Below are positions 3,127-26,072 of a stretch of DNA of 64,000 bases, in pieces. How positions within the stretch are numbered: the stretch's first letter is position 1; every line of letters starts with the position of its first letter. The stretch spans positions 62,001-126,000 of the forward strand of contig JAHJGM010000009.1 of assembly GCA_018824305.1 (NCBI GenBank). The letters run 5' to 3'. The position numbers were made by a program, and so were the translations under genes. Under the pieces are notes generated by a model. The model did no database searches and was not told the origin of the DNA. It was given only the letters and a program-made list of their open reading frames with translations. Source of the DNA: a bacterium. GTDB lineage: Bacteria; Campylobacterota; Campylobacteria; Campylobacterales; Sulfurimonadaceae.

Positions 3127-3837
3127 TTGAAAGACAAATCTAAAAAAAGAGTCAATATGATAAAAATCGCGATGATCGAAGATGATACTGAATTAGCAGA
3201 AGTGCTGACTCAATATTTGGCAAAGTTTTGTATAGAAGTCATCAATTTTGATGATCCGTTTATAGCTCTTAGTAACATTGCTCTCAATAACTATGATCTT
3301 ATTATCCTAGATTTGACGCTTCCCGGTCTTGATGGTCTGGAGGTGTGCAAAGAGCTGCTGACGAAACACAAGACACCGATCATCATATCAAGTGCAAGAA
3401 GTGACATTACAGATAAAGTAATAGCTCTTGAACTCGGAGCAGATGATTACCTGCCAAAACCCTATGATCCAAGAGAACTTGAAGTCAGGATAAAGGCGAT
3501 CTTGCGAAGATGTTCAAAAGAGCTGCAGCTGCTAAATCCTGATGTTAAAGATGAACTCTTTACTTTAGATGAAGAGAAACGAGAGATAAAACAAAACGGC
3601 AGGTACTTGAAACTGACACCCGCAGAGTATGAGATAATGTCCTTGATGTGCAAACGGAAGGGTTTTATCGTCTCAAGGTCCGAGATTTTGCAAAACTGCA
3701 GTTTCTTAAACAGTGATGAAGACAGCGGAAGTCTGGCTGTTATCATCAACAGAATTAGAACAAAGATAGAGATCGAAGCGAAAAACCCCAAATACCTGTT
3801 GACCATCAGAGGTTCAGGGTATAAGTTGGTAGAATGA
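3127..3837 (+). CDS. OmpR-family response regulator
   Basis: REC domain (DLIILDLTLPGLDG) plus winged-helix domain (NRIRTKIE...LLTIRGSGYKL). Confidence 0.92.
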   Translation: MKDKSKKRVNMIKIAMIEDDTELAEVLTQYLAKFCIEVINFDDPFIALSNIALNNYDLIILDLTLPGLDGLEVCKELLTKHKTPIIISSARSDITDKVIALELGADDYLPKPYDPRELEVRIKAILRRCSKELQLLNPDVKDELFTLDEEKREIKQNGRYLKLTPAEYEIMSLMCKRKGFIVSRSEILQNCSFLNSDEDSGSLAVIINRIRTKIEIEAKNPKYLLTIRGSGYKLVE

Positions 3838-5060
3838 ATAAAAGATCGATATTATTTACGATAAATTTGACATTTTTTATCGCTTTTTTACTCATAAGTG
3901 TCAGCTTTGGTCTGCTTTATAATATGAACCAGAAAAGAGAAGATTTCTTTATCCATAAACGGGGCATGGATATCTCCAGAATGTTTATGGATGAGCATAG
4001 ATTTTTCGGAATAAGTGAAAAGATGAAACAGGATGTCGAGCGATTTGATTTTTCATTTATCGACAATGAACAAAAGATCGATAAGATCTTGCATGACAAA
4101 AGTCTGAGACTAAGACATAGTGAGCGCAGAAACGTTTTTAATTTTGAGTATTTTGAACTCAATAACAGCTACTACATTTATATCTTTACCCCGAATGAAA
4201 GAGTGATATTAAAAGACAATATAGTAAAGAACAGAATAAACGGAGCTATTATCATCTATTCGGTTATAGTCGCTATCTTCGGTTTTCTTTATTTTTCGAT
4301 CATCAACAAGCTCAAACCGCTGAAAAATCTTAATAACCTGGTAAAAGATTTCGGCAATGAGGAGTTTGATATAAAGTACACGCCATCGGGAGAGGATGAG
4401 ATTTCAAAACTGATACGGGAATTTAATATCTCGGCAAAAAAGCTAAAAAGCATCAAAGAATCCAGAAATATCTTTATACGAAATATTATGCATGAGTTAA
4501 AAACGCCTATCACTAAAGGAAAGTTTTTAATTCATCTTCCAAATACGGAAGCAAATGCCGACAAGATGCAAAAAGTGTTTTACAGACTTGAAGCGCTGAT
4601 AAATGAGTTTGCCGCAATTGAAGAGTTGATATCTGTCAAAAAGGATATTGCAATGAAAGAGTATTATTTAGAGGATATCGTAGATAATGCGATAGATATC
4701 TTGATGTGCGATGAGAACGAAGTCATAAAATATTTTGAAAACCTGAAGTTGAACATCAATTTTGATATCTTCTCCATAGCGGTCAAAAACCTTTTGGACA
4801 ATGGGATAAAGTATTCCGATAACAGAAAAGTCGTCGTAAAAACCGAGGGAACGAATATTGTATTTGAAAACAGCGGAGAGAAGCTTGTCTACCCGCTAGA
4901 AAACTATTTTGAGCCTTTTTTTCGGGGTGATAACGTCAAGTCAAATCAAAGTTTCGGATTGGGTCTTTACATCGTAAAACATATTTTACAAGCACATGCT
5001 CTAATGCTGAAATATGAATATCAAGAGGGAGTCAGCAGATTTATTATCAGCAGAAATTAA
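3834..5060 (+). CDS. Sensor histidine kinase
   Basis: TM regions, HAMP, H-box NIMHELKTPITK, N-box and GLGLYIVKHI; ATGA overlap with upstream regulator. Confidence 0.92.
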   Translation: MNKRSILFTINLTFFIAFLLISVSFGLLYNMNQKREDFFIHKRGMDISRMFMDEHRFFGISEKMKQDVERFDFSFIDNEQKIDKILHDKSLRLRHSERRNVFNFEYFELNNSYYIYIFTPNERVILKDNIVKNRINGAIIIYSVIVAIFGFLYFSIINKLKPLKNLNNLVKDFGNEEFDIKYTPSGEDEISKLIREFNISAKKLKSIKESRNIFIRNIMHELKTPITKGKFLIHLPNTEANADKMQKVFYRLEALINEFAAIEELISVKKDIAMKEYYLEDIVDNAIDILMCDENEVIKYFENLKLNINFDIFSIAVKNLLDNGIKYSDNRKVVVKTEGTNIVFENSGEKLVYPLENYFEPFFRGDNVKSNQSFGLGLYIVKHILQAHALMLKYEYQEGVSRFIISRN

Positions 5061-5192: not shown

Positions 5193-7610
5193 ATGAGAGT
5201 AGTGATCGTCGGTGGCGGTATCGCCGCAGTATATTTGGCAAATAATCTAAAAAAGCAAGATTCCGGTGTTGAAGTCACAATTGTCAGTGACGAGAAAAAC
5301 CCTCCCTATGACAGGATACATCTTTGCCGTCTTGTCGATGAATCCGAAGATATAGGCGGGATATCCCTCCCTCTTGACCCTACCGTAAGACTTGAACTGA
5401 ACCAAAAGATAAACAGGATAGATACAGAGGATAAAAGAGTGTTTTCCGACGATTCTATGTTCAGTTACGACAAGCTCATTATCGCGACAGGTTCTGTTCC
5501 CATCACCCTCTTTGACATAGAAAATATCGAAAATGCAGCGGTTTTTAGAAGTGCGGATGACTGCGACATCATCAAAGCCGGCGTATCCGGACGTGAGGTG
5601 GTCATAGTGGGAAGCGGTCCCATAGGACTCGAACTTTTAGAGACCCTAAACGAGATGCCCGGTATTGAAAAGATAACGCTACTTTCTCGCGGCACTCATC
5701 TTTACAACAGAGAACTTTCGATCGACTCAATAAAGACTATAGAAGAATGCTATACAAAAGCGGGAAAGATAAGAATATCTTATGAAGACGAGATAGTAGA
5801 AAAGAGGATCGTAAATAATGAGATAACGCTCTTAAAGACAAAAAAACATGAGATACAAAATCCGTTCTTGGTCTTTGGTGTCGGTATCAAACCAAATATT
5901 CAAAACTTTAAAGAGAGTCTGAAATGCAATAAAGGGATACTCACAAACCTTTACATGCAGAGTGAAGATGAAGATATCTATGCGGTTGGCGAGTGTGCCG
6001 AGGTCAAAGATATCAACTTTGTAGCAGGTCATGTAAAAGAGTGTACCATGCAGGCAGATTGCGCCATATCTCATATTTTAGGCAAAGATGCAAAAGAGTT
6101 TAAACTCGAAGCTAGTACCGATATGCTCAAAGTCGGCGAGTTCGATCTGGTCGATGTCTCTTCTCCAAAGTTCAGCTGCGGTTATGAAAAAGTAGTCATC
6201 GCCTCAAAAGATGTCAATAGAATAGATGAATATTTTATCAATGATGACAAACTGACTAAATTTATAGGTATTAACTCCAATGTGGATGTGGGATATATCG
6301 AGAGTCTGATAAACAGCGGCGACGAGGTAGATATAAATTATCTTTATCAAAACAGGCTTATCGGTGAGAGAGGAAGACTGATATGCAGTTGTGAGCATGT
6401 GTATCATCAAGATCTAGTCGATATAGTCGTAAGTAGCGGTATAGGTTCATTTTCTGAACTTGCACCGTTTTCTCAGGCTGGAAGAGTTTGTGGTAGATGT
6501 AAGATGATGGTCTCAAATATCATAAAAGAGTCCCAGCATCTCATCGATCCGAATATGCCGAGAAAAACTCCTGAAGATATACAAAGAGAAAAAGAGGTAG
6601 CAGAGGTTGCTAAGCGTATAGCAAAATTTAATACGCTTCATCCGAGAAACAATTTGACGACCGATAATCTAGAAGCTGCGATGGCATCTTTAGATATAGG
6701 AAAGCGCGAGGTCAATAGCTGGATATCTATGGTAACGGCGGATATGAAGCTTCATCCGAGCTTTGAAGAGGTCACTTTAGAAGGGGTTAAGACTCTCAAC
6801 AAAGTTCCTATTGTCTGGTTGGAACTTGCAGATTGCAGCGGAAACTCAGAAAGTTTTATCAAATCGGCCAATCCTGCTATCGAGGACCTTATTTTTGATT
6901 ATATATCACTTGATTACCATGAGCTGCTGATGAGTGCAAGCGGTGATCAAAGCGAGACCATTTTAGAAGATATCATCAAAAATCAAAAGGGTGAGTATGT
7001 CCTTATAGTAGAGGGTGCGATCCCGCTGGCGATGGATGGAAAATATCTTCGTATCGGTCCAAAAGGGGAGACGGGTATAGATCTTTTGAAAAAATGTGCA
7101 AAAGATGCGGCACTGATCATCGCCGTTGGAAGCTGTGCGTTTGACGGCGGAGTCGTTGCGGCTTCTCCAAATCCTACGGGTGCTGTAGGCGTAGCCGATG
7201 CGCTGGGGCGTAATGATGTCATTAACATCTCGGGATGTCCGACAAATCCGATAAACATCGTAGGAACACTGCTTTCATATATCATGTTTGAGGAACTGCC
7301 GGAACTTGATCAGTTTAATCGTCCTCTTTGGGCTTACGAGGGTCGTGTCCATGATAACTGTGAAAGACGCGGACACTATGAACTCGGCGAATTCGTCAAA
7401 GAATGGGGCGATATCGGTGCCAAAAAAGGGTGGTGTCTGTTTGAGATGGGATGTAAAGGTCCATATACAAACGTCAACTGTCCGACGATGAAGTTTAACG
7501 GCGGGACAAGCTGGCCTGTCCAAGCAGGACACGGTTGTATGGGATGTACGGAGAAGGGCTTTTTTGATAAGTTTGCAAATGAAAGAAAATATGTTGAGGA
7601 AGAAAACTGA
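5193..7610 (+). CDS. Fusion: NirB-like FAD/NAD(P)-binding oxidoreductase + BFD-like [2Fe-2S] domain + [NiFe]-hydrogenase small subunit
   Basis: VVIVGGGIAAVYLA and VVIVGSGPIGLELLE Rossmann motifs; CSCEH...GRVCGRC; then VPIVWLELADCSGNSE...VGSCAFDGG...SGCPTNP...GHGCMGC; no Tat signal and no C-terminal TM. Confidence 0.93.
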   Translation: MRVVIVGGGIAAVYLANNLKKQDSGVEVTIVSDEKNPPYDRIHLCRLVDESEDIGGISLPLDPTVRLELNQKINRIDTEDKRVFSDDSMFSYDKLIIATGSVPITLFDIENIENAAVFRSADDCDIIKAGVSGREVVIVGSGPIGLELLETLNEMPGIEKITLLSRGTHLYNRELSIDSIKTIEECYTKAGKIRISYEDEIVEKRIVNNEITLLKTKKHEIQNPFLVFGVGIKPNIQNFKESLKCNKGILTNLYMQSEDEDIYAVGECAEVKDINFVAGHVKECTMQADCAISHILGKDAKEFKLEASTDMLKVGEFDLVDVSSPKFSCGYEKVVIASKDVNRIDEYFINDDKLTKFIGINSNVDVGYIESLINSGDEVDINYLYQNRLIGERGRLICSCEHVYHQDLVDIVVSSGIGSFSELAPFSQAGRVCGRCKMMVSNIIKESQHLIDPNMPRKTPEDIQREKEVAEVAKRIAKFNTLHPRNNLTTDNLEAAMASLDIGKREVNSWISMVTADMKLHPSFEEVTLEGVKTLNKVPIVWLELADCSGNSESFIKSANPAIEDLIFDYISLDYHELLMSASGDQSETILEDIIKNQKGEYVLIVEGAIPLAMDGKYLRIGPKGETGIDLLKKCAKDAALIIAVGSCAFDGGVVAASPNPTGAVGVADALGRNDVINISGCPTNPINIVGTLLSYIMFEELPELDQFNRPLWAYEGRVHDNCERRGHYELGEFVKEWGDIGAKKGWCLFEMGCKGPYTNVNCPTMKFNGGTSWPVQAGHGCMGCTEKGFFDKFANERKYVEEEN

Positions 7611-9286
7611 TGAGCACGAAAAAAATTGTCATAGACCCGATAACAAGAATAGAAGGGCATTTACGAGCCGAAGTAGAAGTAGATGAAGATGGAGTCGTTC
7701 AAGAAGCGTATGTCAGCGGGCAGCTTTTTCGCGGGATAGAAGTCATATTAAAAGGCAGAGATCCTCGTGATGCAGGACTTTTAGCCGGCAGGATATGCGG
7801 TGTTTGTACAAATGTGCACTTTCGCGCTGCCATTACCTCCGTGGAAGACGCCTACAAGATAGAACCGCCAAAAAATGCCCAGATCATACGAGACCTGATT
7901 ACGATGGCGCTTTTTATCCAAGACCATGTGGTGCATTTTTATCATCTTCACTCTTTGGATTTTGTCGATGTGACAAGTGCGCTACAGGCAGATCCGAAGC
8001 TGACATCAAAGGAAGCCGATAAATACTCTGACCATCCATTTAGAAACTCCGACACGCACTATGAGGCGGTGCTAACAAAACTTCAAAACTTTGTCAAAGC
8101 GGGAAAACTCGGACCTTTTAACAATGGATACTGGGGACATAAAGATTATAGACTTAACCCTGAGCAAAATTTGATTCTTATCTCTCACTATTTGGAAGCT
8201 TTAGAGTTTCAAGCGACCATGGGCAAGGCTGTGGCGATATTTGGAGCCAAGTCTTCGCATCCTCAGACACAAGTCGTAGGCGGTGTCACAAGTGTTGCCG
8301 ATATGCTGAACCCCCAAAGGTTAAACGATTATCTGTTTGTGATAAAAGAGGCAAAAGAGTTTATCAACCGTGCGTATCTGCCGGATATGAAGATCATTGC
8401 TTCGGCTTACCGTGATGAGATGAAAGCGGGGCTCGGTCGAGCTAATGGCAATTTTTTATGTGTAGGCGGATATGAGTTTGAAGATGACCAAAGACTGTTT
8501 TGCAACGGAGTGATCTATGGACATGATTTTAGCAAGATAGAAGAGTTTGACGAGAGTCTCATAAGTGAAGAGATCGATCGCGCTTGGTACAGCGGAGAGG
8601 GCAGAGCAAATGAAGTCTGCTACACAGACCTCAATGAAGACGGAAGCCTCAAAACAGCGAAAAACGATGACAAATATTCATGGATAAAAGCTCCGAGATA
8701 CGACGGCAAGACGATGGAAACAGGACCGCTTGCAAGGATACTCATTAGCTATTCAAAAGATAATCAGCTTATAAAGTCTTTTGTGGATGAGTTTTTAAAT
8801 GAGACGGATTTGGAACTCATAGACCTCTCTTCCACCGTGGGTAGAAACTGTGCAAGAGCCATCGAGACGAACTATATCTGCGAATATATCTTTAAACTTG
8901 TCTCACGTTTAATCCAAAATATTAAGTATTACGATACGGAGACTTGGACGAAATATGACTTCAATTCACTAGAAAAAAGTGCAAAAGGAAGGGCGTTTTT
9001 TGAGGTGCCGCGCGGTGTCTTGTCCCACTTTGTTAATATAGAGAATGAGAAGATAGGAAACTATTCAGTCATAGCACCTACGACTTGGAACGCATCACCA
9101 AAGAACTTTGATGGCAAGCGTGGTGCTTATGAAGAGGCTTTGGTCGGGATCAAGATAGAAGACACCTCTAAACCGCTTGAAGTATTGAGAGTCTTGCACT
9201 CTTTTGACCCGTGTCTTGCATGTGCCGTACATGTGATCGATGCAAAGGGTAGAGAACTCAGTAGTTATAAGATAAAAACACTATGA
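7610..9286 (+). CDS. [NiFe]-hydrogenase large subunit (partner of the fused small subunit)
   Basis: RICGVC...; C-term DPCLACAVHVIDAKGRELSSYKIKTL with cleavable-type extension; ATG overlaps upstream stop. Confidence 0.95.
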   Translation: MSTKKIVIDPITRIEGHLRAEVEVDEDGVVQEAYVSGQLFRGIEVILKGRDPRDAGLLAGRICGVCTNVHFRAAITSVEDAYKIEPPKNAQIIRDLITMALFIQDHVVHFYHLHSLDFVDVTSALQADPKLTSKEADKYSDHPFRNSDTHYEAVLTKLQNFVKAGKLGPFNNGYWGHKDYRLNPEQNLILISHYLEALEFQATMGKAVAIFGAKSSHPQTQVVGGVTSVADMLNPQRLNDYLFVIKEAKEFINRAYLPDMKIIASAYRDEMKAGLGRANGNFLCVGGYEFEDDQRLFCNGVIYGHDFSKIEEFDESLISEEIDRAWYSGEGRANEVCYTDLNEDGSLKTAKNDDKYSWIKAPRYDGKTMETGPLARILISYSKDNQLIKSFVDEFLNETDLELIDLSSTVGRNCARAIETNYICEYIFKLVSRLIQNIKYYDTETWTKYDFNSLEKSAKGRAFFEVPRGVLSHFVNIENEKIGNYSVIAPTTWNASPKNFDGKRGAYEEALVGIKIEDTSKPLEVLRVLHSFDPCLACAVHVIDAKGRELSSYKIKTL

Positions 9287-11043
9287 CTCCCTACAGCATT
9301 CTTATTGTATCGCCTTTGGTTTTTGCATTGGTCGTATTAGTGGGCAATGCTGTTGTTAGAAATATATTTACTATCATCTTTGTTATCGGTTTAAGTGCTT
9401 TGAGTCTTGGCAATATTGCACTTTTTAGCATATCGTCTGAACTCCATCTGTCACATTTATTTCATAATCTATTTATTTTACTTGATATTATTGTTCTTTT
9501 CTACTTTCTTTGGCGGGGTGTTGTCTCTAAACACTCTTTAGTGATCATATTGGCACTGCTGCAGATCGTTCTTTACGGTGTAGTCATTACGTTGTCCCCT
9601 AAACTTATTTCAAGTGATATTTTAGTCGATCAAATATCTTCGATCATGTATCTTGTCATAAATATGGTCGGCGGTATCATCATCGTGTATGCACTCAAAT
9701 ATATAGAGAGCGAAGAGTTCTCAAGGCTAAAGAAAAACGGTTTTATTGCGATGCTTTTTTTCTTTTTGGCTGTGATGAACTTTATCGTTTCTACCAATAA
9801 TATAGAGATATTTTTCCTGCTTTTTGAACTTACGACGCTCTGTTCTTATATTCTTATCGGCTACAGAAACGATGAGGTCTCGGTAAAAAATGCATTGAAA
9901 GCTCTTTGGATGAATCAGATAGGCGGGGTGGCTATTTTGGTAGCTTTACTCGTTTCTATACTGCAATATGACACAGTATACTTTAATATCCTAATACGTA
10001 TTATAGATGTAAACTACCTGTTACCTATAGTTTTCTTGGCGATTGCGGCATTTGTCAAGGGAGCGAGTATTCCCTTTGACAAATGGCTTATCGGAGCCAT
10101 GGTGGCACCTACACCCGTGAGTGCGATCTTGCATAGTGCGACGATGGTAAAGATCGCTCCATACCTTATGTTAAAACTGGCACCGGCTATGAGCGGATTT
10201 GTCTCTATCACAGTGACTTTAATCGGTACCTTTGTATTTTTTGCGGCAACGCTTATCGCTTTAAGCAAGGATTATTTTAAAGAGATACTCGGTTATTCCA
10301 CTATCGCACTGCTTGCTTTGATGATGAGTCTGGCAGCCATAGGAACTCCTGAGGCCATAACGGCATGTATACTCCTTATCATGTTCCATGCCGTCTCAAA
10401 AGCATTGCTGTTTTTGCAAGCGGGTATACTGGAAAAAAACTTTCATCTAAAATATGTCAATGACATTAACGGCTTAGTAAACCACTCAAAGCTCGTAGTG
10501 TTTTTCATAATCGTGGGTTTTGCTTCTTTGACGCTTCCTCCATTTGGCGTGTTTATCGGCAAGTTTATGGCGATCGAGTCTATTTCAAAAGAATTGCTAA
10601 TGCATCCCCTTTATGTTTTCGCACTTATCTTTTTGGCACTTGGCAGTGTCGTTATGACACTGCTTTATTTTAAAGTCGTGGCAAAACTGTTTGCAAAAGA
10701 CGTTGATCTGAAACTTCCGCATGTAGAGATATCAAAGTTTTATACCATCCCCTCATTTTTACTTTTGATATTGCTTTTCATAGGGATAGCCATAAGTTTT
10801 GAAAGAGAGTTCTTAAGCTCGGCGCAGATCATCGTGCCTTTGGTCTTGATACTTTTGATCCCGATCTTGTTCTCGACACTGCTGTTTAAAAATGCCCACA
10901 GGGTAAAAGAGTATAACTGTGGTGAAAAAGATGGACTGAAACTGGGGATGTATTACTTCTATCTGACTGAGCGTACTACAAAGAGCATTAGTGCTGTGAG
11001 TATCATCGGGCTGTTGATACTCATCATAGGAGTATTGTTATGA
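9283..11043 (+). CDS. echA: Ech-type hydrogenase subunit A (NuoL/HyfB-like antiporter-type)
   Basis: Proton_antipo_M-like: KGASIPFDKWLIGAMVAPTPVSAILHSATMVKIAPYL. Confidence 0.82.
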   Translation: MTPYSILIVSPLVFALVVLVGNAVVRNIFTIIFVIGLSALSLGNIALFSISSELHLSHLFHNLFILLDIIVLFYFLWRGVVSKHSLVIILALLQIVLYGVVITLSPKLISSDILVDQISSIMYLVINMVGGIIIVYALKYIESEEFSRLKKNGFIAMLFFFLAVMNFIVSTNNIEIFFLLFELTTLCSYILIGYRNDEVSVKNALKALWMNQIGGVAILVALLVSILQYDTVYFNILIRIIDVNYLLPIVFLAIAAFVKGASIPFDKWLIGAMVAPTPVSAILHSATMVKIAPYLMLKLAPAMSGFVSITVTLIGTFVFFAATLIALSKDYFKEILGYSTIALLALMMSLAAIGTPEAITACILLIMFHAVSKALLFLQAGILEKNFHLKYVNDINGLVNHSKLVVFFIIVGFASLTLPPFGVFIGKFMAIESISKELLMHPLYVFALIFLALGSVVMTLLYFKVVAKLFAKDVDLKLPHVEISKFYTIPSFLLLILLFIGIAISFEREFLSSAQIIVPLVLILLIPILFSTLLFKNAHRVKEYNCGEKDGLKLGMYYFYLTERTTKSISAVSIIGLLILIIGVLL

Positions 11044-11864
11044 TAGAGATACTTTTGATACTTTTTGCTCCTATATTGGGCGGTCTTGTCTACGGATTTG
11101 AGAGAGTGGTAAGGGCACGTATGCAAAACAGACAAGGGCCTCCTCTTTTACAGCCCTTTTATGACATGTATAAACTTATAGATAAGCAGAGCTTCATCGT
11201 CAACCCGTATCATTCTATTTTGGGTGTGATGCATTTTTTGACTTTGTGGGCGGTCGTGGCGTTTGTTATCCTCGGAGGCAATCTCCTTTATATCGTATTC
11301 TTACATCTGCTCTCAGTCATCTTTATCATTCTTGCCGGTTTTAGCGTGAACTCTATCTATTCTCACATCGGTTCAAACAGAGAACTTTTGGCGACTCTTG
11401 CTTACGAGCCTGTTTTAGTGATGCTCTCAGTCGGCTTTTTTATGCTTAACGGCAGTTTTGATATATCTGTTATCAGAGAACATACATCATCTATCTTTCC
11501 GCTTTTCTTGCTCTTTTTGGCTTTTTTACTCGTGATACCGATCAAGCTGAAAAAGTCTCCTTTTGACGCTTCTGAAGCACATCAAGAGATAGTCGGCGGT
11601 GTCGAGATCGAGTTTAGCGGAGTGTTCTTCGAGTTCATATATATGGCAAAATGGCTTGAGTATGTCTTTATCTATCTTCTGCTTTTGTTGTTTGCGGGCA
11701 ACAATATAATCCTCGGAGCAGGTTTGGCAGTCGCTGTTTTCTTTTTGGTAAATCTGGTGGACAACTCCACTGCAAGGGTCAAGATGGTGCATCTTGTTAA
11801 GATAGTATTAGGTATCGGCGTGACGCTTGGTATGTTAAATCTTTTAGGACTCGGTTATGTTTGA
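11040..11864 (+). CDS. echB: Ech-type hydrogenase subunit B (NuoH/HyfC-like)
   Basis: KKSPFDASEAHQEIVGGVEIEFSG. Confidence 0.85.
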   Translation: MIEILLILFAPILGGLVYGFERVVRARMQNRQGPPLLQPFYDMYKLIDKQSFIVNPYHSILGVMHFLTLWAVVAFVILGGNLLYIVFLHLLSVIFIILAGFSVNSIYSHIGSNRELLATLAYEPVLVMLSVGFFMLNGSFDISVIREHTSSIFPLFLLFLAFLLVIPIKLKKSPFDASEAHQEIVGGVEIEFSGVFFEFIYMAKWLEYVFIYLLLLLFAGNNIILGAGLAVAVFFLVNLVDNSTARVKMVHLVKIVLGIGVTLGMLNLLGLGYV

Positions 11865-12390
11865 TCTTAAAAAATACAGAAAAAAATCTCCCTGGATACT
11901 CCACTATAATGCAGGCAGCTGTAACGGATGCGATATCGAGATACTCGCCTGTCTTTCTCCAAAGTATGACTTGGAGAGATTTGGTGTTATCAATACGGGA
12001 AATCCAAAGCAGTCGGATATCTTTTTGGTGACAGGTCCCGTTACATTTCGGACAAGAGAGAGACTTGTAGAACTCTACACTCAGATGCCGGAACCAAAAG
12101 TGGTCATAGCCGTAGGAAGCTGTGCATGTACGGGATGTGTGTTTAGAGATATGTACAACGTGGAAGTCGGGATCGACAGATATATTCCTGTGGATGTCTA
12201 TGTACCGGGATGCGCGTCATCTCCGGAACTCATCATCGACGGAGTGGTAAAAGGGTTGGAGATACTGGAACAAAAAACCAAAGAGATGGAAAAACCGTTC
12301 AAGCTGTTTAAAGAGGCGACGACCGATGACGGCATCGTAAACAGACGCCACAGCGCACTGAAAGTAGGGGAAGACGATGCAAAAGATTGA
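11857..12390 (+). CDS. echC: Ech-type hydrogenase small subunit (NuoB/HycG-like)
   Basis: NAGSCNGCDIEILACLSP...AVGSCACTGC...VPGCASSPE. Confidence 0.9.
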   Translation: MFDLKKYRKKSPWILHYNAGSCNGCDIEILACLSPKYDLERFGVINTGNPKQSDIFLVTGPVTFRTRERLVELYTQMPEPKVVIAVGSCACTGCVFRDMYNVEVGIDRYIPVDVYVPGCASSPELIIDGVVKGLEILEQKTKEMEKPFKLFKEATTDDGIVNRRHSALKVGEDDAKD

Positions 12391-12724
12391 GGTCTCATTA
12401 GAGAACGTACGAGACGAAATAAAAAAGTTTTATGATTACAAGCAGTGGCATTTTCTTACTCTTAACGGCTTGGCACTTGCAGATGAAAAAATGGAAGTCC
12501 AGTGGATATTTTCCAAGTATGAGGCGATGGATGAGATAGTTATCTACTATGCCGTTATAGATTACAACGAGATCATCCCCTCGGTCGTAGATATGATACC
12601 CTCAGCGATCATCTCGCAGCGTGAACTGGTAGATATGTTCGGTGTGCAGGTCGAGGGCAGCGAAAAAGGCTTGTATCTTGATGAGGATTCCCAAATGTCT
12701 CCTTTAAAAGGATGTTCGATATGA
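12377..12724 (+). CDS. echD: Ech-type hydrogenase subunit D (NuoC-like)
   Basis: Position in operon and NuoC-like SAIISQRELVDMFGVQVEG. Confidence 0.75.
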   Translation: MQKIEVSLENVRDEIKKFYDYKQWHFLTLNGLALADEKMEVQWIFSKYEAMDEIVIYYAVIDYNEIIPSVVDMIPSAIISQRELVDMFGVQVEGSEKGLYLDEDSQMSPLKGCSI

Positions 12725-13806
12725 AAAAGACGATAAATATCCCTTTAGGCTCGCAGCATATCTCCCTTTTAGAACCCGTGCGTTTCAAGTTCGAATGTGA
12801 GAACGAGAAGATCATCGGTGTCGATGCTGATGTGGGATTTGTGCACAGGGGAGTCGAAAAGGCGTGTACGACAAGTTTTAAGTTTGATGCTATCGGTTAT
12901 GTGGTCGCCAGAGTCTGCGGACTTTGCGCCATCACCCATTCACTTACCTATACTGCTGCGGTAGAAAAGCTTTTGGGAGCCCAGATCACATCCAAGGCAA
13001 AGTATCTAAGGATACTGCTCTTGGAACTCGACCGCATCCACTCTCACATGCTTTGTCTCTCCCACACCTGTGAAAATGCGGGTTTTGAGGCGATGTTTAT
13101 GCGAATCATGGGCGACAGAGAACACATTATGGAGATACAAGAACTCATCACCGGCAACAGGGTGCAGTTTGACTATATAAGCATCGGCGGGGTCAATAGA
13201 GATTTAGCCCCAGAGTCGGTACAAAAGATAAAAGAGAACCTTTATATCGTCAAACAAAAAGTACAGGGGTATATGGACGAGTTTACGAATAACTGGAGCC
13301 TCTCTTTAAAGTTCAAAGGCATAGGAATGTTGAGTCTTGACGATGCTTACATGTACAACGCCATAGGCCCGCTTGCCCGTGCTTCTGGACTGAGAATCGA
13401 TGTGCGAAACGAGATAGACTACCTTCCATATCATGAGGTCGGTTATAAGATGCAGACACATACGGATGGCGATATCAATGCAAGAAATCTGGTCAGACTC
13501 GCCGAGTTGGTAAACTCCATCGAGATGTGTGAGAACATTTTAAACGGACTGCCTGAAGGTGACATATTTACAAAGATAAAAGGCAAACCGCAAGGTGAGG
13601 CATTGATGCGTTTTGAGGCTCCGCGAGGGGAGTTGATGTACTATATAAAAGGCAACGGAAGTGCGATGCTTGAACGCGTTCGCATAAAAACACCGACATT
13701 TTCATGTATCCCGGCGTTTTCTCATATATTTTTAGGCGGGGATTATGCGGATGCTCCTGCAGTGCTGGCATCTTTTGATCCATGTATGTCGTGTACGGCT
13801 AAATAG
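12712..13806 (+). CDS. echE: Ech-type hydrogenase large subunit (NuoD/HycE-like), no C-terminal extension
   Basis: FVHRGVEK, RVCGLCAITHS, DRIHSHML; ends FDPCMSCTAK*. Confidence 0.9.
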   Translation: MFDMKKTINIPLGSQHISLLEPVRFKFECENEKIIGVDADVGFVHRGVEKACTTSFKFDAIGYVVARVCGLCAITHSLTYTAAVEKLLGAQITSKAKYLRILLLELDRIHSHMLCLSHTCENAGFEAMFMRIMGDREHIMEIQELITGNRVQFDYISIGGVNRDLAPESVQKIKENLYIVKQKVQGYMDEFTNNWSLSLKFKGIGMLSLDDAYMYNAIGPLARASGLRIDVRNEIDYLPYHEVGYKMQTHTDGDINARNLVRLAELVNSIEMCENILNGLPEGDIFTKIKGKPQGEALMRFEAPRGELMYYIKGNGSAMLERVRIKTPTFSCIPAFSHIFLGGDYADAPAVLASFDPCMSCTAK

Positions 13807-13815
13807 AGGTCAATT

Positions 13816-14217
13816 ATGTTTACATCATTCATAAAAGCATTGGCCAATCTTTTTAAAAAGCCGCAGACCATAGACTATCCCGTTACTCCAATAGCAAAAG
13901 ATAAAGAGTATAGAGGACTCATAGAGTACGGCGAGGAGTCATGTATCTATTGTCTCAAGTGTGAACATGCCTGTCCTCCTGGAGCTATTTTGTTTGTTCC
14001 TGTAGAAAATCCATCGACAAATGAAAAAAATAAAAAAGGGCTTGCATATAACTACAATCCCTATCTTTGTATCTACTGCGGAGAGTGCGTCAGAGCCTGC
14101 CCGAAACCTGAAGAAGCTCTTTGGCAAAGCAACAAAAAACCGGATGTCGCAGTGAAGAGTGATAATGTAAACTCAGGCTGGTTTGAACTTGAAAAACAGC
14201 ATAAAGAGCAATTGTAA
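13816..14217 (+). CDS. echF: Ech-type hydrogenase ferredoxin-like subunit F (2x[4Fe-4S])
   Basis: CIYCLKCEHACPPGAI and CIYCGECVRACP. Confidence 0.87.
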   Translation: MFTSFIKALANLFKKPQTIDYPVTPIAKDKEYRGLIEYGEESCIYCLKCEHACPPGAILFVPVENPSTNEKNKKGLAYNYNPYLCIYCGECVRACPKPEEALWQSNKKPDVAVKSDNVNSGWFELEKQHKEQL

Positions 14218-19510: not shown

Positions 19511-20098
19511 TTGAACGATAAAAAAGAACAGAAAAAAGAGCAGATCATAGTAGCTTCTTTGCATCTTTTTGCAACCAAAGGTTTTTATAACACTACTATC
19601 CCCGATATCGCTTTGTCTTTAAAGATGAGTGTCGGAAATATGTATAACTATTTTAAATCAAAAGACCTGCTTGCAAAAGAGATCATCAAATTCGTATCTT
19701 CATATTTCGGCAGAAAAATAAAAGCGATAAACGAAGAAAATATATCTACAAAAGAAAAGACAAGAAAGATCGTCGAGGTCTATTTTCAAACAGCTTTACT
19801 AAAACCCGAAATGATAGATTACTTTTTGAGGATCTATCTTTCTACCCGCGAAGTGTTTAAAGAGGGATGCGAAGGGATGATATGCGTGAACGATTTTGTG
19901 ACCGAGATCATGATCTATTTCGAAGAGGGCGTAAAATGCGGCGATCTGAGAGATCAGGATTTTTTCAGTGCGTTTGGACTTTTTATGGGTTACATGGGCG
20001 GAATGGTGTTTCTTAAAGGTGAAAACGTACTGCCAAAAGAACTAGACCAATACATAGACGACGTATCATCAAATATCTATAAAGCCCTAAGCGCATAA
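19511..20098 (+). CDS. TetR/AcrR-family transcriptional regulator
   Basis: N-terminal HTH: IIVASLHLFATKGFYNTTIPDIALSLKMSVGNMYNYFKSKDLL. Confidence 0.92.
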   Translation: MNDKKEQKKEQIIVASLHLFATKGFYNTTIPDIALSLKMSVGNMYNYFKSKDLLAKEIIKFVSSYFGRKIKAINEENISTKEKTRKIVEVYFQTALLKPEMIDYFLRIYLSTREVFKEGCEGMICVNDFVTEIMIYFEEGVKCGDLRDQDFFSAFGLFMGYMGGMVFLKGENVLPKELDQYIDDVSSNIYKALSA

Positions 20099-20100
20099 TC

Positions 20101-20979
20101 ATGAAAAAGACAAGGGTATTATGGCTGACTCTTATGAGCTGCAACGGCAATACCCACTCCTTTTTAAACTACCCTTATATAGAACAGTTTTTAAATGATT
20201 TCGAGTTTATCTATCATCCTATCATAGATTCGGATTACACTTTAGAAGAGATCATCTCTCAAGATATAGCTTGCGATATTTTGCTTATCGAGGGTTCGGT
20301 AGCAGATGATTTTATCAAAGCGGGAGTACCCGGAATCGACATCATCAAGAGATACGCAAAAATAGTCGAAAAGATCGTCACGGTAGGAACATGTGCCACT
20401 TTTGGCGGGATCTTTAGAGAAAGTAATTATAAAGACGTATCGGGATTGCATTTTCAAGAAGAGCGCCGAACCGACAAATATAACGATCTGTTTGAAAAAA
20501 CTGTTTCGATCTCAGGCTGCCCCGTACATCCAGAAGTACTAGTCAGTACGCTTTATGCTATCAAAAAGGGATTATCTTTAAAACTCGATGCGTACTTAAG
20601 ACCAAAAGAGTATTTTTCATATACGATACATAACGGCTGTACGAGAAACGAATACTTTGAGTATAAGGTAGACAACCATCATTTCGGCGAGTTGGAAGGG
20701 TGTATGTTTTACGACCACGGATGCAGAGGTCCCTTTACGCACGGCAGCTGCAATAAGATACTCTGGAATGAGGTAAACTCAAAGACAAGAGCCGGTCTGC
20801 CATGTATGGGGTGTACCGAGCCGAGTTTTCCAAAACGAAACATCTTTGAGACAAAAAAGAATATGGGAATACCGGAATTTCTTCCTGTGGGCGTCTCAAA
20901 AAGAACATATTTGACATTGGCGGGGATTACCAAAGCCTTTACGATAGATAGACTGGAAAAGAAGTTATTCGATGATTAA
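20101..20979 (+). CDS. [NiFe]-hydrogenase small subunit, cytoplasmic, regulatory/group 2-like
   Basis: LMSCNGNTHSF, VGTCATFGG, SGCPVHPE, GLPCMGCTEP; no Tat signal; starts 2 nt after the tetR stop. Confidence 0.88.
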   Translation: MKKTRVLWLTLMSCNGNTHSFLNYPYIEQFLNDFEFIYHPIIDSDYTLEEIISQDIACDILLIEGSVADDFIKAGVPGIDIIKRYAKIVEKIVTVGTCATFGGIFRESNYKDVSGLHFQEERRTDKYNDLFEKTVSISGCPVHPEVLVSTLYAIKKGLSLKLDAYLRPKEYFSYTIHNGCTRNEYFEYKVDNHHFGELEGCMFYDHGCRGPFTHGSCNKILWNEVNSKTRAGLPCMGCTEPSFPKRNIFETKKNMGIPEFLPVGVSKRTYLTLAGITKAFTIDRLEKKLFDD

Positions 20980-22231
20980 GTTAATAGAAAAGATAGAGGG
21001 TGAAGCCAAGCTCAACTTTAGTTTTAAAGATAATAAAATAGATGACGTCAGTGTTGATTTTATGTCGACGCGGCATGTAGAGGATATCTTAAAAGGAAAA
21101 ACACCTCTTGATGCTCTAGTCATCAATCCAAGAGTCTGCGGAATATGCGGACACGCGCATCTTATTGCTACGGTGCGGGCACTGGAAGCATGTTATGAAG
21201 ATATCCAAATATCAAATAAAGCAAAAATCATCAGAGAACTAACGCTTACATTTGAACTTATCCAAAACCACTTCAAATGGTTCTATCTTACGATATTTCC
21301 TTTCTTCGGTGTGAAGCAAGAGATTGCAAAAGCGCTCTATCCTACTCAATTAATGGGAAAAGCCATCGCAGTTTTTGGCGGACAATATCCTCACACCTCT
21401 TATGCTATCGTAGGGGGAGTCGTGTGTGAAGTGACAAATATGGATATTATCAAAGTGCAGCGCTACATCGATGAGACGACCGATTTTTTTGAGAAGAACG
21501 TACTAAGCATACAAAACAGTGATCTCAAAACATTAAATACTCTCAATGATCTCTCACATGTAAAGGGAGACCTGAGAGATATCTTGAAGAAAATAGAGCA
21601 AAACGATTGGCAGAATCTGGGAAAAAGTTACGATAGATTTATAGCTTTTGGAGAGAGCAGTTATTTTAAAAAGGGCAAATCGATCAAAACAAGAGTGACA
21701 CAAAACTTAGCGATAGACGATGTCAAAGAAACAGACTCAACGACCTCTTTTGCCAAAAGTGTGCATTATCATGACCAATATTATGAAGTCGGACCACTGG
21801 CTCGTGCGATGATCGGTAAAAATCCGTTGATAAAAGATGCACATAGAAGATATGGGGATAGTATCTTCACGAGGATATTGGCAAGAGTGTATGAGATACC
21901 ACAGCTTTTAGAGCATACCAAAATATTAATAGAGAGTTTAGATCTTAGTGAACCCTCATATATAAAACCGGAGGTCGATATCTCACAGTTGAATGCAGTG
22001 GGAATCTCGGCAGTAGAGGCGGCTAGAGGAACTCTTATCCATAAGGTAGAGATAGAGGATTTAAAAATAAAAAGCTATGAGATCATCACACCCACGCAGT
22101 GGAATCTATGCGGCGGGCATGAGCAAAATCTCGGTGTTTCACAAAAAGCAATGATAGGACTTGATAATGTAAAACTTGCAGAAATGGTCTTTAAGACATT
22201 TGATGTCTGTTCCGTTTGCACTACTCATTAA
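20972..22231 (+). CDS. [NiFe]-hydrogenase large subunit without C-terminal extension
   Basis: RVCGICGHAHLIATV; ends FDVCSVCTTH*. Confidence 0.9.
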   Translation: MIKLIEKIEGEAKLNFSFKDNKIDDVSVDFMSTRHVEDILKGKTPLDALVINPRVCGICGHAHLIATVRALEACYEDIQISNKAKIIRELTLTFELIQNHFKWFYLTIFPFFGVKQEIAKALYPTQLMGKAIAVFGGQYPHTSYAIVGGVVCEVTNMDIIKVQRYIDETTDFFEKNVLSIQNSDLKTLNTLNDLSHVKGDLRDILKKIEQNDWQNLGKSYDRFIAFGESSYFKKGKSIKTRVTQNLAIDDVKETDSTTSFAKSVHYHDQYYEVGPLARAMIGKNPLIKDAHRRYGDSIFTRILARVYEIPQLLEHTKILIESLDLSEPSYIKPEVDISQLNAVGISAVEAARGTLIHKVEIEDLKIKSYEIITPTQWNLCGGHEQNLGVSQKAMIGLDNVKLAEMVFKTFDVCSVCTTH

Positions 22232-22349: not shown

Positions 22350-23582
22350 ATGTCAGAAAGAATCGAAGGGGTGAAAAAGCTTTTTACCTCCAAAAGCACT
22401 AGAGTGGAGACAAACCGAGGTGAGTCTTATTATGCGGACTTGTTTGAGAAGTGTCAAGCAAGACTCAAAGAGCTGCGAGAGAACGGTCCTATAAACAGAC
22501 TGGATTTCAGTGAAGTATTAAGTGAGAACGGCGTCGATAGACGTGACTTTATGAAGTGGGTCAGTGCAACTACTGCGATGCTTATGCTTCCTCCGATGTT
22601 TTCTCCGCTTGTAGCAGAAGCAGCAGAGCTTATGAACCGTGCTCCTGTTATCTGGCTTGAACTCCAAGACTGTGCAGGGAACTCAGAAGCACTGCTTCGT
22701 TCAGACGGACCAAAGATAGATGAGATCGTACTTGATATCATCTCTTTAGAGTTTCATGAGACGCTTCAGGCTGCATCAGGCTTTCAGGCTGAAAAACAAT
22801 TAGATGATGCTATCGAGACTTTTAAAGGGAAATACCTTCTTTTCGTCGAGGGTTCTATCCCAATGGGAATGAATGGTCAGTTCGGTACCATAGGTGCAGG
22901 TGCAGAGACATTTTATGATCACTTGATGCGTGTATCTAAAGATGCGGCGGCTGTTATAGCAGTCGGTTCTTGTGCGACATTTGGCGGTGTTCCTGCAGCT
23001 TCTCCAAACCCGACAGGTGCTGTTGGAGTTATGGATGTAGTAAAAGGCAAGCCTATTATCAACATCCCTGCATGTCCTGCAAACCCTGCAAATATGGTCG
23101 GTGTGGTACTTCATTACGTATTGACGGGTCAAGTCCCTGAGTTAGATTCACTTCTTCGCCCTAAGTTCGCATTTGGTTACAGAATCCACGATAACTGTGA
23201 AAGACGCGCACACTTTGATGCAGGCGAGTATGTGGAAGAGTGGGGCGATGAGGGTGCTAAAAACAACTTTTGTCTTTATAAAATGGGATGTAAAGGTCCT
23301 ATGACCTTCAATAACTGTTCTATCGTACGCTACAACGAAGCGGTCAACTGGCCGATCGGAGTCGGACGCGGATGTATCGGTTGTTCTGAGCCTGATTTCT
23401 GGGATAAATATGCATATGAGCGTCCGATGGCGGATGCGAAGATAAAAGCACCTACTGGCGGAGTTGAAAAATCTGTCGATGAATTCGGTTTAGGACTGCT
23501 TACAGCAGCGGGTATAGGAATAGGTATCCACGCGGTCGCAAGTGCCGTAGCAGGTAAAAAAGAAGATGGAGGAGAGGCATAA
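22350..23582 (+). CDS. hydA: Uptake [NiFe]-hydrogenase small subunit, Tat-exported
   Basis: Tat signal DRRDFMKWVSATTAMLML; IWLELQDCAGNSE; VGSCATFGG; GRGCIGCSEP; C-terminal TM. Confidence 0.95.
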   Translation: MSERIEGVKKLFTSKSTRVETNRGESYYADLFEKCQARLKELRENGPINRLDFSEVLSENGVDRRDFMKWVSATTAMLMLPPMFSPLVAEAAELMNRAPVIWLELQDCAGNSEALLRSDGPKIDEIVLDIISLEFHETLQAASGFQAEKQLDDAIETFKGKYLLFVEGSIPMGMNGQFGTIGAGAETFYDHLMRVSKDAAAVIAVGSCATFGGVPAASPNPTGAVGVMDVVKGKPIINIPACPANPANMVGVVLHYVLTGQVPELDSLLRPKFAFGYRIHDNCERRAHFDAGEYVEEWGDEGAKNNFCLYKMGCKGPMTFNNCSIVRYNEAVNWPIGVGRGCIGCSEPDFWDKYAYERPMADAKIKAPTGGVEKSVDEFGLGLLTAAGIGIGIHAVASAVAGKKEDGGEA

Positions 23583-25360
23583 TGAGTAAGAAACATATCG
23601 TAGTTGACCCGATCACACGTATCGAGGGACATTTAAGAATCGAGGCAGTCATCGATGAAAACAATACAATTGTTGATGCTTATAGTGCTTCAACGATGTT
23701 CCGCGGGATAGAAACGATCCTAAAAGGAAGAGACCCTCGCGATTGTGGACTTTTAGCTATGCGTATCTGCGGTGTTTGTACGGGTACTCACTACCAACGT
23801 TCGATCGAAGCGGTAGAGGATGCGTTTAACGTTACTATTCCTAAAAATGCGCGTATCGTTCGTAACCTTATCCAAGGTGCACTCTATGTGCATGACCACC
23901 TTGTTCACTTTTACCATCTTCACGCTTTAGACTTCGTAGATGTGGTCTCGGCACTCTCAGCCGATCCTGCAAAAACAGCAGAAGAGGCCAGAAAGTGGGC
24001 GGGTGTCGCAGGCGTTTCTCCATATACTGATGGACCAAGCGAGTTCAAAGAGATCCAAGACCGTGTGGCAAAGTTCGTTAAACAGGGACGTTTGGGGATA
24101 TTTGGAAACGGATACTGGGGAAATAAACACTATAAACTCACTCCAGAACAAAACCTTATCGGTGTGGCACACTACCTTAAAGCACTTGATATCCAACGCG
24201 ATCTGGCTAAGATGCAGGCGATATTTGGCGGTAAGAACCCGCATCCACAGTCTATCGTCGTCGGCGGTGTTACATGTGTGCAAGATATAGAGAACCCTGC
24301 ACGTATAGCACTGTTTAAACAACTGCTTGCTGATGGTACGAAATTCGTAAAACAAGCTTACCTCCCCGATGTGTATATGGCAGGAACAATGTATGCTGGC
24401 GAAGCGACAGACTCTAAAGCGACGTTCACAGAACTTATGCAGGGTAAAGGCGTAGGGGGAACAGGCGGCGGACTTCTTAACTTCATGAGTTACGGAGATT
24501 TCCGTTTGGATGATACAGGATTTTACAAGTCAGCTCTGCTTTTTCCTAGCGGTATAGTTTACGGCGGAGATATCTCAAAAGTAGAAGAGGTAGATCCTGA
24601 GAAGATCGCAGAAGATGTGACTCACTCTTGGTATGAGGGTGCAAAACCTCTTCACCCTTATGATGGACAAACGATTCCAAACTATACGGGTCTAGATAAA
24701 CGTCCAGACGGTATAGCGTACCTAAAAACAGATGAGAAATACAGCTGGATCAAATCACCTATCTATAATGACACACGTGTAGAGGTCGGACCTTTGGCTC
24801 GTATGGTCATAGGTGTTGCACGTAAAGATGAACGTATCACTAAGTATGTGATGAACTTCCTCAAACGCGGAAATCTTCCTGTATCGGTTCTCTTTAGTAC
24901 CATAGGAAGAACAGCGGCTCGTGCGATCGAGACAGAACTGATGGCAGATATCCTAGTAGAGTGGGCTGATGAGTTGGCAAAAAATGCGGCAAGCGGCGAC
25001 CTTCGCACTTGGACGGAGTTTGACTTCGATAAAGTAAGCGTCAAGACAAAAGGTATGGGACTTGCAGAAGCACCTCGCGGGGCACTTGGACACTGGGTTC
25101 GTGTGGAAGAGGGTAAAGTGGCTAACTACCAAGCGATCGTACCTTCTACTTGGAATGCGGCACCTCGTGATTATAAAGGAAGACTGGGCGCTTATGAAGC
25201 GAGCTTGATCGGTATCAAGGTCGCAGATCCTGAACAACCGCTAGAGATCATTCGTACGATCCACAGCTTTGACCCTTGTATTGCGTGTGCCGTGCACGTA
25301 GTCGATACAAAAGGCAAAGAGTTAGGTGTCTATAAGATAGATACGCAATGCAGTATCTAA
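23582..25360 (+). CDS. hydB: Uptake [NiFe]-hydrogenase large subunit
   Basis: RICGVCTGTH; DPCIACAVHVVDTKGKELGVYKIDTQCSI. Confidence 0.97.
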   Translation: MSKKHIVVDPITRIEGHLRIEAVIDENNTIVDAYSASTMFRGIETILKGRDPRDCGLLAMRICGVCTGTHYQRSIEAVEDAFNVTIPKNARIVRNLIQGALYVHDHLVHFYHLHALDFVDVVSALSADPAKTAEEARKWAGVAGVSPYTDGPSEFKEIQDRVAKFVKQGRLGIFGNGYWGNKHYKLTPEQNLIGVAHYLKALDIQRDLAKMQAIFGGKNPHPQSIVVGGVTCVQDIENPARIALFKQLLADGTKFVKQAYLPDVYMAGTMYAGEATDSKATFTELMQGKGVGGTGGGLLNFMSYGDFRLDDTGFYKSALLFPSGIVYGGDISKVEEVDPEKIAEDVTHSWYEGAKPLHPYDGQTIPNYTGLDKRPDGIAYLKTDEKYSWIKSPIYNDTRVEVGPLARMVIGVARKDERITKYVMNFLKRGNLPVSVLFSTIGRTAARAIETELMADILVEWADELAKNAASGDLRTWTEFDFDKVSVKTKGMGLAEAPRGALGHWVRVEEGKVANYQAIVPSTWNAAPRDYKGRLGAYEASLIGIKVADPEQPLEIIRTIHSFDPCIACAVHVVDTKGKELGVYKIDTQCSI

Positions 25361-25370
25361 GGAGATTATC

Positions 25371-26072
25371 ATGAGCTCTGAATATAAACAGGTAAAACGT
25401 ATGACTAGTACTAGTCGTATTATCCATTGGGCAAATGCCATATCAATGATAGTCGCGATCATCACAGGGTTGTATATAGGTCATCCATATTACGAAACAC
25501 TCATCGCAGACGGTGCGGTGGACAAGTATGTAATGGCATGGAATAGATGGGGACATTTTATAGTGGCGATCATATTTGACGTCACATCGGTAGTGATCGC
25601 ATATCTCTACTTTTTCAGCAGATTTGAAAAAGCATATAAGAAAGTGATCCCGACAACTAAGAACATCGCTGAGTTCTTTGAAGTCGTGCTCAACCTCTTT
25701 ACTCTTAACAGACGTAAAAAGTTTGATTCGACACACATGGACAGCTTTAATGCAGTCTATTTTTTAATATTCCACCTCCTGCTTGCATGGATGCTTTTTA
25801 CAGGTTTACAACTGTATGTAGGCGGTTTGGAATCAGGAATCAGCTCTATAGGAGCTTGGTGGCCTTGGCTACTTCATGTGGCAACGGATTGGACGATTCC
25901 AGTTACGGGTGGGACTATCATGGATGTAAGAATCGCACACCATTATAGTATGTGGTTCATCGTGATCTGGGTAGTATTTCATATCTACTACCAAGTATGG
26001 AGAACCATTTTCTGGAAAGAGGGCGATATCGCGATCGTCATAGGCGGAAGCAAATTTGTTAAAGAGAAATAA
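25371..26072 (+). CDS. hydC: Hydrogenase cytochrome b subunit
   Basis: Multi-TM with RIIHWANAISM, HHYSMWFIVIWVVFHIYYQV. Confidence 0.93.
   Translation: MSSEYKQVKRMTSTSRIIHWANAISMIVAIITGLYIGHPYYETLIADGAVDKYVMAWNRWGHFIVAIIFDVTSVVIAYLYFFSRFEKAYKKVIPTTKNIAEFFEVVLNLFTLNRRKKFDSTHMDSFNAVYFLIFHLLLAWMLFTGLQLYVGGLESGISSIGAWWPWLLHVATDWTIPVTGGTIMDVRIAHHYSMWFIVIWVVFHIYYQVWRTIFWKEGDIAIVIGGSKFVKEK

Follow-up and report, generated by a model that had tools for sequence, protein, structure and literature searches.

A 64,000-nucleotide stretch of contig JAHJGM010000009.1 (positions 62,001 to 126,000; hereafter the window), from a member of the Sulfurimonadaceae in the Campylobacterota, carries an 805-codon gene in which a NirB-like flavoprotein, a BFD-type [2Fe-2S] module and a [NiFe]-hydrogenase small subunit form a single chain, followed directly by the gene of a group 1-type large subunit, HydL (Table 1). 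It seems reasonably likely from the sequences that the two proteins form a [NiFe] hydrogenase of the cytoplasm in which electrons pass directly, and probably in both directions, between H2 and NADP(H). The fusion architecture is already known but uncharacterised, and the window holds a further member. What we add is an NADP-type nucleotide site, the occurrence of an unusual Cys-x-Gly-Asn (CxGN) proximal cluster motif also in ordinary HydA proteins, a linker with the features of a relic twin-arginine translocation (Tat) leader, a single origin with a nested gammaproteobacterial copy and a neighbourhood with a six-gene Ech-type hydrogenase set. A first-pass annotation of the window had described the fusion but overlooked the CxGN site, the relic leader, the NADP-type site and the Ech-type genes.

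Architecture and distribution of the fused gene

The three-part composition proposed in the first-pass annotation was borne out by domain searches of the 805-residue open reading frame (ORF). Each of its Pfam matches lies above the curated cut-off (Pyr_redox_2 at residues 1-288, E 7e-43; Fer2_BFD at 396-446, 5e-8; Oxidored_q6 at 548-695, 1e-28; NiFe_hyd_SSU_C at 715-795, 2e-29), and among the NCBIfam models TIGR00391 (hydA) spans residues 491-795 (4.5e-112), while the NirB model spans residues 1-446 as one unit with a match (7e-45) below its own cut-off. The large subunit is covered end to end by PF00374, and its start codon shares one nucleotide with the stop codon of the fusion (TGATG at 7608-7612), which is the overlap described before. 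An AlphaFold model of the full chain, built from a 52-sequence alignment, reached a mean predicted local distance difference test (pLDDT) score of 75 with a confident flavin/BFD half. A Foldseek search with this half led to putidaredoxin reductase and the BphA4 ferredoxin reductases (template-modelling score, TM, by target of about 0.8), enzymes that exchange electrons between flavin adenine dinucleotide (FAD) and a [2Fe-2S] partner, which fits the fused [2Fe-2S] domain.

Table 1. Features of the fused hydrogenase genes and the adjoining gene set, in window coordinates.
Feature	Position	Strand	Evidence
Fused small subunit, 805 aa: NirB-like FAD/NAD(P) reductase, BFD [2Fe-2S], relic linker and [NiFe] small subunit	5193..7610	+	Pfam, NCBIfam; 71 further copies aligned
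Pyr_redox_2 two-Rossmann flavoprotein domain, aa 1-288	5193..6056	+	Pfam; Foldseek of model
Predicted NADP(H) 2'-phosphate site S165-R166-G167, where strand 2 of the NAD(P) fold ends	5685..5693	+	Alignment of 72
BFD-like [2Fe-2S] module, aa 396-446, C398xC400...C433xxC436	6378..6530	+	Pfam; four Cys in 72/72
Linker, aa 462-536, putative remnant of the Tat leader and N-terminal extension of an exported HydA	6576..6800	+	hhalign against HydA N-termini
[NiFe]-hydrogenase small-subunit domain, aa 537-795	6801..7577	+	Pfam, NCBIfam; ligands in 72/72
[NiFe]-hydrogenase large subunit HydL, group 1 type, 558 aa, 17-residue C-terminal extension	7610..9286	+	Pfam; motifs in 56/56 orthologues
Six-gene Ech-type energy-converting hydrogenase set: NuoL-, NuoH-, NuoB-, NuoC-, NuoD- and NuoI-like (ORFs 9283, 11040, 11857, 12377, 12712, 13816)	9283..14217	+	Pfam

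The fusion is shared by many genomes. We found 17 further full-length fusions among 60 relatives, and a scan of a genome collection with the flavoprotein/BFD half yielded 80 loci, 71 of them full length. The small-subunit proximal motif follows in the same frame at 76 of these loci, and the remaining four end before the motif. A missed stop or frameshift between the two halves, which the first-pass annotation had named as a possible refutation, is thus excluded along with a chimaeric contig or other artefact by 71 other full-length copies read in one frame. In an even draw, 21 of 299 Campylobacterota genomes (7%) and 10 of 58 genera have the fusion. Nearly all full-length copies are campylobacterotal; the only credible locus outside this phylum among the 80 is from Hydrogenovibrio (L133), and no plasmid record covering 80% of the fusion was found. 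A large subunit lies directly 3' of the fusion at 55 of the 61 loci with room for it, and where it is not adjacent it was found elsewhere in the genome in both genomes checked. Two loci with campylobacterotal fusions appear to have misassigned titles, namely an environmental metagenome-assembled genome (MAG) labelled Helicobacter pylori PMSS1 (L137) and a contig of a Flavobacteriaceae MAG (L092). At another locus (L108, on the contig of L048, G012; 8947-10635), the large subunit is split into two ORFs beside an intact fusion, reflecting a frameshift, decay or an assembly error.

The nucleotide site

Where strand 2 of the NAD(P) fold ends, the window protein reads LLSRG. Across the 72 full-length fusions used for all ligand alignments (the window copy and 71 others), position 166 is Arg in 71 and Gln in one (L125), and position 165 is acidic in none. 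The top sequence matches of residues 1-190 in the PDB are the BphA4 mutants 4h4x (E175A/T176R/Q177G), 4h4z (E175Q/T176R/Q177G) and 4h4v (E175C/T176R/Q177G), which outrank wild-type BphA4 and whose mutated triplet aligns residue for residue with S165-R166-G167. These mutants were reportedly built to move BphA4 from NADH to NADPH use. A genuine NirB of the same order, taken as a control, has Glu at the site. In rice monodehydroascorbate reductase, a Glu in the same region sets the preference for NADH (PMC5031999), and this residue aligns opposite G167 of the fusion, two residues downstream. We predict that the fusion uses NADP(H), because an x-R-x motif replaces the NADH-type Glu, position 165 carries no acid and the site resembles that of the BphA4 mutants. 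A natural variant is seen in the Sulfurovum fusion L125 (2605-5034), which has SQN for xRx at this site and CCC for CSC in the BFD module.

An unlikely alternative keeps the electron path and has NAD(H) as the nucleotide, which was proposed for Hydrogenovibrio crunogenus XCL-2. NADH is used by NirB and most ferredoxin reductases of this fold, and CoA-disulfide reductases that share it (3cgb) can use either nucleotide. A suggestion of an "NADH-binding site" goes back to Scott et al. 2006, cited in PMC4744846. The complete lack of acidic residues at position 165 and the near-invariant Arg166, set against the Glu of the control NirB, speak for NADP(H) instead. Quite improbable, in our view, is a flavin-BFD front end that passes electrons from H2 (or NADPH) to some other soluble acceptor such as a sulfur compound, a disulfide or a partner protein. 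Two cysteines of the flavoprotein domain, Cys45 (5325-5327) and Cys284 (6042-6044), are invariant in all 72 fusions and replaced by Thr and Gly in the control NirB, hinting at extra chemistry, and the fold is that of reductases exchanging electrons with small Fe-S partners. However, the conserved nucleotide site and the fused [2Fe-2S] module already provide both ends of the chain, and no conserved partner gene is seen besides those for the maturation protease, Hyp proteins, Ech subunits or the TetR-hydrogenase cassette.

Cluster ligands and metal sites

All four BFD cysteines (C398, C400, C433, C436) are invariant across the 72 fusions, as are the proximal (C548, N551, C648, C682), medial (C763, C782, C785) and distal (H720, C723, C748, C754) cluster positions. 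With copies differing from the window by up to about 47%, this invariance argues for purifying selection. Loss of the FAD- or NAD(P)-binding residues, on which the first-pass annotation had also staked its reading, was not seen in the alignment: the FAD motif is retained except for two single-residue changes at Gly8. The window HydL has the motifs RICGVCTNVH (L1) and DPCLACAVH (L2) ahead of its C-terminal extension, and RIEGH, RxCGxCxxxH and DPCxxCxxH (L0, L1 and L2) are present in all 56 full large-subunit orthologues.

The sole departure from the textbook Fe-S set is at the proximal site, where all 72 fusions have Asn for the second Cys (C548-S-G-N551 in the window copy) and hence lack the four-Cys (CxxC) proximal cluster typical of group 1. 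The small subunit, previously called complete, is so by its full TIGR00391 match but not by this ligand, and inspection of the fusion alignment by eye found no substitute fourth ligand. The CxGN motif also occurs in ordinary Tat-exported HydA proteins of Campylobacterota (window 22350, L002, L027-L037), including both HydA genes of the host genome, and in HydA of Sulfobacillus (L140), whereas E. coli HyaA and HybO, Cupriavidus HoxK and two divergent campylobacterotal HydA (L051, L125) have Cys. This sharing with ordinary exported enzymes weakens the published doubts on Fe-S binding. The view that the Fe-S sites are not conserved (PMC4744846) is unsupported in our alignment, in which every ligand position is invariant and only CxxC is changed to CxGN. 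Campylobacterotal group 1 enzymes from outside our alignments, those of S. denitrificans and Wolinella, proved active upon expression (PMC6265342).

Ancestry of the fusion

The linker between the BFD module and the small-subunit domain aligns with the Tat leader and N-terminal extension of HydA over 72 columns (hhalign probability 97.9, E 2e-12), compared to E-values of 0.043 for the best of 30 column shuffles and 0.13 for the reversed alignment. The twin-arginine pair is absent from all 72 fusions but present in the HydA encoded at 22350 (DRRDFM), a difference already noticed in the first-pass annotation. By this comparison the linker is, to all appearances, a decayed Tat leader, and the cytoplasmic location proposed earlier holds as a prediction. 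The sampled fusions have a single origin: in a maximum-likelihood tree of small subunits a 100/100 branch sets every one of them apart from the rest, and the copy of Hydrogenovibrio sp. 3SP14C1 (L133) is nested among them (98/89; XCL-2 itself is outside the data set), which is consistent with one fusion event and later transfer. Horizontal gain of the hydrogenase by Thiomicrospira was proposed earlier by Hansen & Perner (PMC4744846). The ancestor would have been a group 1 uptake hydrogenase exported by way of Tat; its leader would have decayed into the linker, and the NirB-type front half would have taken the place of its membrane cytochrome b partner. Orthologues were placed in group 1b via their motifs (PMC4744846). 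With neither a twin-arginine motif nor an anchor gene, the fusion lacks the marks of a periplasmic, membrane-linked respiratory enzyme, and we regard it as group 1 by apparent ancestry and not by predicted location.

Hansen & Perner discussed a decaying, inactive hydrogenase as a possible reading for XCL-2, given the loss of Tat signal, cytochrome b and Fe-S sites. We consider decay very improbable for the fusions. XCL-2 indeed showed no activity, its Fe-S motifs are off the group consensus and it has no Tat signal (PMC4744846), but decay sits badly with ligand positions that stay invariant at such divergence and with a CxGN motif found also in exported HydA, and a relic leader combined with a fused reductase resembles remodelling.

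Proposed function

In the hydrogenase that we propose, H2 would be split at the NiFe site of the large subunit, and electrons would pass through the proximal cluster (with three Cys and Asn as presumed ligands), the medial [3Fe-4S] and the distal [4Fe-4S] cluster to the BFD [2Fe-2S] cluster, FAD and finally NADP+. The first-pass prediction of electron transfer from H2 to NAD(P)H stands, likewise as a deduction from sequence. Searches of the host genome detected neither PF01512 (NuoF/HoxF) nor PF02233 (PntB), and ATP-citrate lyase is present, so a direct route from H2 to NADPH should be useful to an autotroph using the reductive tricarboxylic acid cycle; the likely job of the enzyme would be to supply NADPH for biosynthesis. 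The SP-41 orthologue is transcribed most when H2 is the sole electron donor (PMC6501319).

Several observations weigh against this proposal. In XCL-2, where no second [NiFe] hydrogenase is known, hydrogenase activity was missing from every fraction; in SP-41, with the same cluster plus another hydrogenase, it was confined to the membrane and the soluble fraction was negative, each with the acceptors of those assays (PMC4744846, PMC6501319). No purified fusion enzyme is on record in our literature search, which combined BFD or NirB with hydrogenase and returned no characterised fusion and no biochemical study. The predicted preference for NADP depends on one sequence signature, and the small-subunit half of the AlphaFold model, computed without the large subunit, is poor.

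A respiratory, membrane-linked role is the usual reading of group 1 [NiFe] hydrogenases, and the fusions have been filed accordingly through their subgroup or, in XCL-2, suspected of being inactive. Should the fusions use H2 directly to produce NADPH, 7% of sampled Campylobacterota genomes would have an anabolic H2 route masked by subgroup labels, which would also explain why a conserved hydrogenase of XCL-2 fails to sustain H2 consumption. As a catalyst for NADPH recycling, an H2:NADP+ enzyme of two proteins would have the further merit of simplicity.

Neighbourhood and host genome

The first ATG of the Ech-type set overlaps the HydL stop by 4 nt, and the reading frames overlap in a continuous array. 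The gene order is that of Ech, and the NuoD-like ORF (12712-13806) has the Ni-site motifs RVCGLCAITH and DPCMSC. Among the 32 loci with sequence on both sides, 11 have Ech-set genes inside the flanks retrieved (4 upstream, 7 downstream); for a site picked at random in a genome of about 2.3 Mb, we estimate well under 1%. The association is real, if not universal. Genes for a maturation protease, Hyp proteins and a TetR/small-hydrogenase cassette also recur beside the fusion. No cytochrome b gene adjoins the fusion in the window, where HydL and the Ech-type genes come next, and the nine scanned neighbour ORFs without a known hydrogenase role are unrelated genes. The host genome encodes large subunits of two ordinary HydB-type enzymes, the partner of the fusion, a smaller pair (20101-22231) and the Ech-type NuoD-like protein.

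The neighbouring Ech complex could use H2 and ion-motive force to reduce ferredoxin. It is conceivable, though doubtful, that the eight genes at 5193-14217 form one H2-cycling module. Ech at the membrane would then interconvert ferredoxin and H2, and the fusion in the cytoplasm H2 and NADPH; linked by diffusing H2, the two would amount to an ion-coupled ferredoxin:NADP+ transhydrogenase in a genome that has neither PntB nor NuoF. A role of the fusion as an H2 sensor or regulatory hydrogenase, suggested by its location in a hydrogenase island just downstream of a two-component system (3127-5060), is hardly credible given the retained C-terminal maturation extension, the redox module in place of a PAS or kinase link, a better candidate in the TetR-linked pair at 19511-22231 and the occurrence of the same response regulator/histidine kinase pair upstream in just one other compared locus (L062).

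This TetR-linked cassette of the window encodes a TetR-type regulator and, after it, the two subunits of a small hydrogenase (292 and 419 aa), whose large subunit ends exactly at DVCSVCTTH without a C-terminal extension and whose small subunit has CNGN. The cassette lies directly 3' of the fusion operon in six Sulfuricurvum loci (L113, L120, L121, L123, L130, L132), and a TetR gene and hydrogenase pair are also found 5' of HydABC on a Sulfurimonas paralvinellae plasmid (L142). It is possible that the cassette is an H2 sensor acting through the TetR regulator and not through a kinase. Elsewhere in the window, a 227-aa ORF on the reverse strand (1300-1983) has a zinc-ribbon-like N-terminus (CxxC...CxxC) and no Pfam match. 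In L041 and L085, its relatives are found close to genes for hydrogenase maturation, and it is possibly transposase-related or a small regulator.

Comparison with known systems

The first-pass annotation left open whether the fusion had been catalogued. It has been (PMC4744846, PMC6501319), while no biochemical characterisation was found. An 813-aa fused small subunit was first reported from the genome of Hydrogenovibrio crunogenus XCL-2 (Scott et al. 2006, cited in PMC4744846), and in 2016 Hansen & Perner found the fusion also in Sulfurimonas autotrophica, Sulfuricurvum kujiense, Sulfurovum sp. AR, Arcobacter nitrofigilis and Thioalkalimicrobium microaerophilum, describing it as group 1b, probably cytoplasmic and of unproven activity (PMC4744846). 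The "cluster I" group 1b hydrogenase of XCL-2 and SP-41 shares the fused architecture, length and group 1 large subunit and likewise lacks a Tat signal and cytochrome b (PMC4744846, PMC6501319). The window copy is of this type, with 805 aa, an N-terminal pyridine nucleotide-disulfide oxidoreductase domain, neither Tat signal nor cytochrome b and common descent with the Hydrogenovibrio copy, but differs in that its genes and an Ech-type set overlap in one array. In the consulted sections of both papers neither a BFD module nor a preference for NADP came up, and we saw nothing on a Tat relic or an association with Ech.

The HydABC uptake hydrogenase of Campylobacterota (window 22350-26072) has homologous subunits, the same CxGN motif and a homologous N-terminal leader, yet unlike the fusion it is Tat-exported, membrane-anchored and quinone-linked and has no flavin module. 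Group 3 enzymes (HoxHY-FU, sulfhydrogenases, MvhAGD) resemble the fusion in the predicted cytoplasmic coupling of H2 to pyridine nucleotides. Their hallmarks, a group 3 large subunit and a NuoF/HoxF diaphorase, are missing: the window HydL scores 471 bits against the group 1 model PRK10467 compared to 108 bits for a partial match to sulfhydrogenase alpha, upholding, along with its motifs and C-terminal extension, the earlier assignment to group 1, and the diaphorase is of the NirB/ferredoxin-reductase type on the same chain, with no NuoF-type subunit in the genome. The N-terminal half of NirB/NasD shares the two-Rossmann FAD/NAD fold and, in NirB, the BFD module. The fusion has a hydrogenase small subunit in place of their sirohaem reductase domain, and its predicted site is NADP-type instead of NAD-type. 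In fold, the flavoprotein part is close to BphA4 and putidaredoxin reductase.

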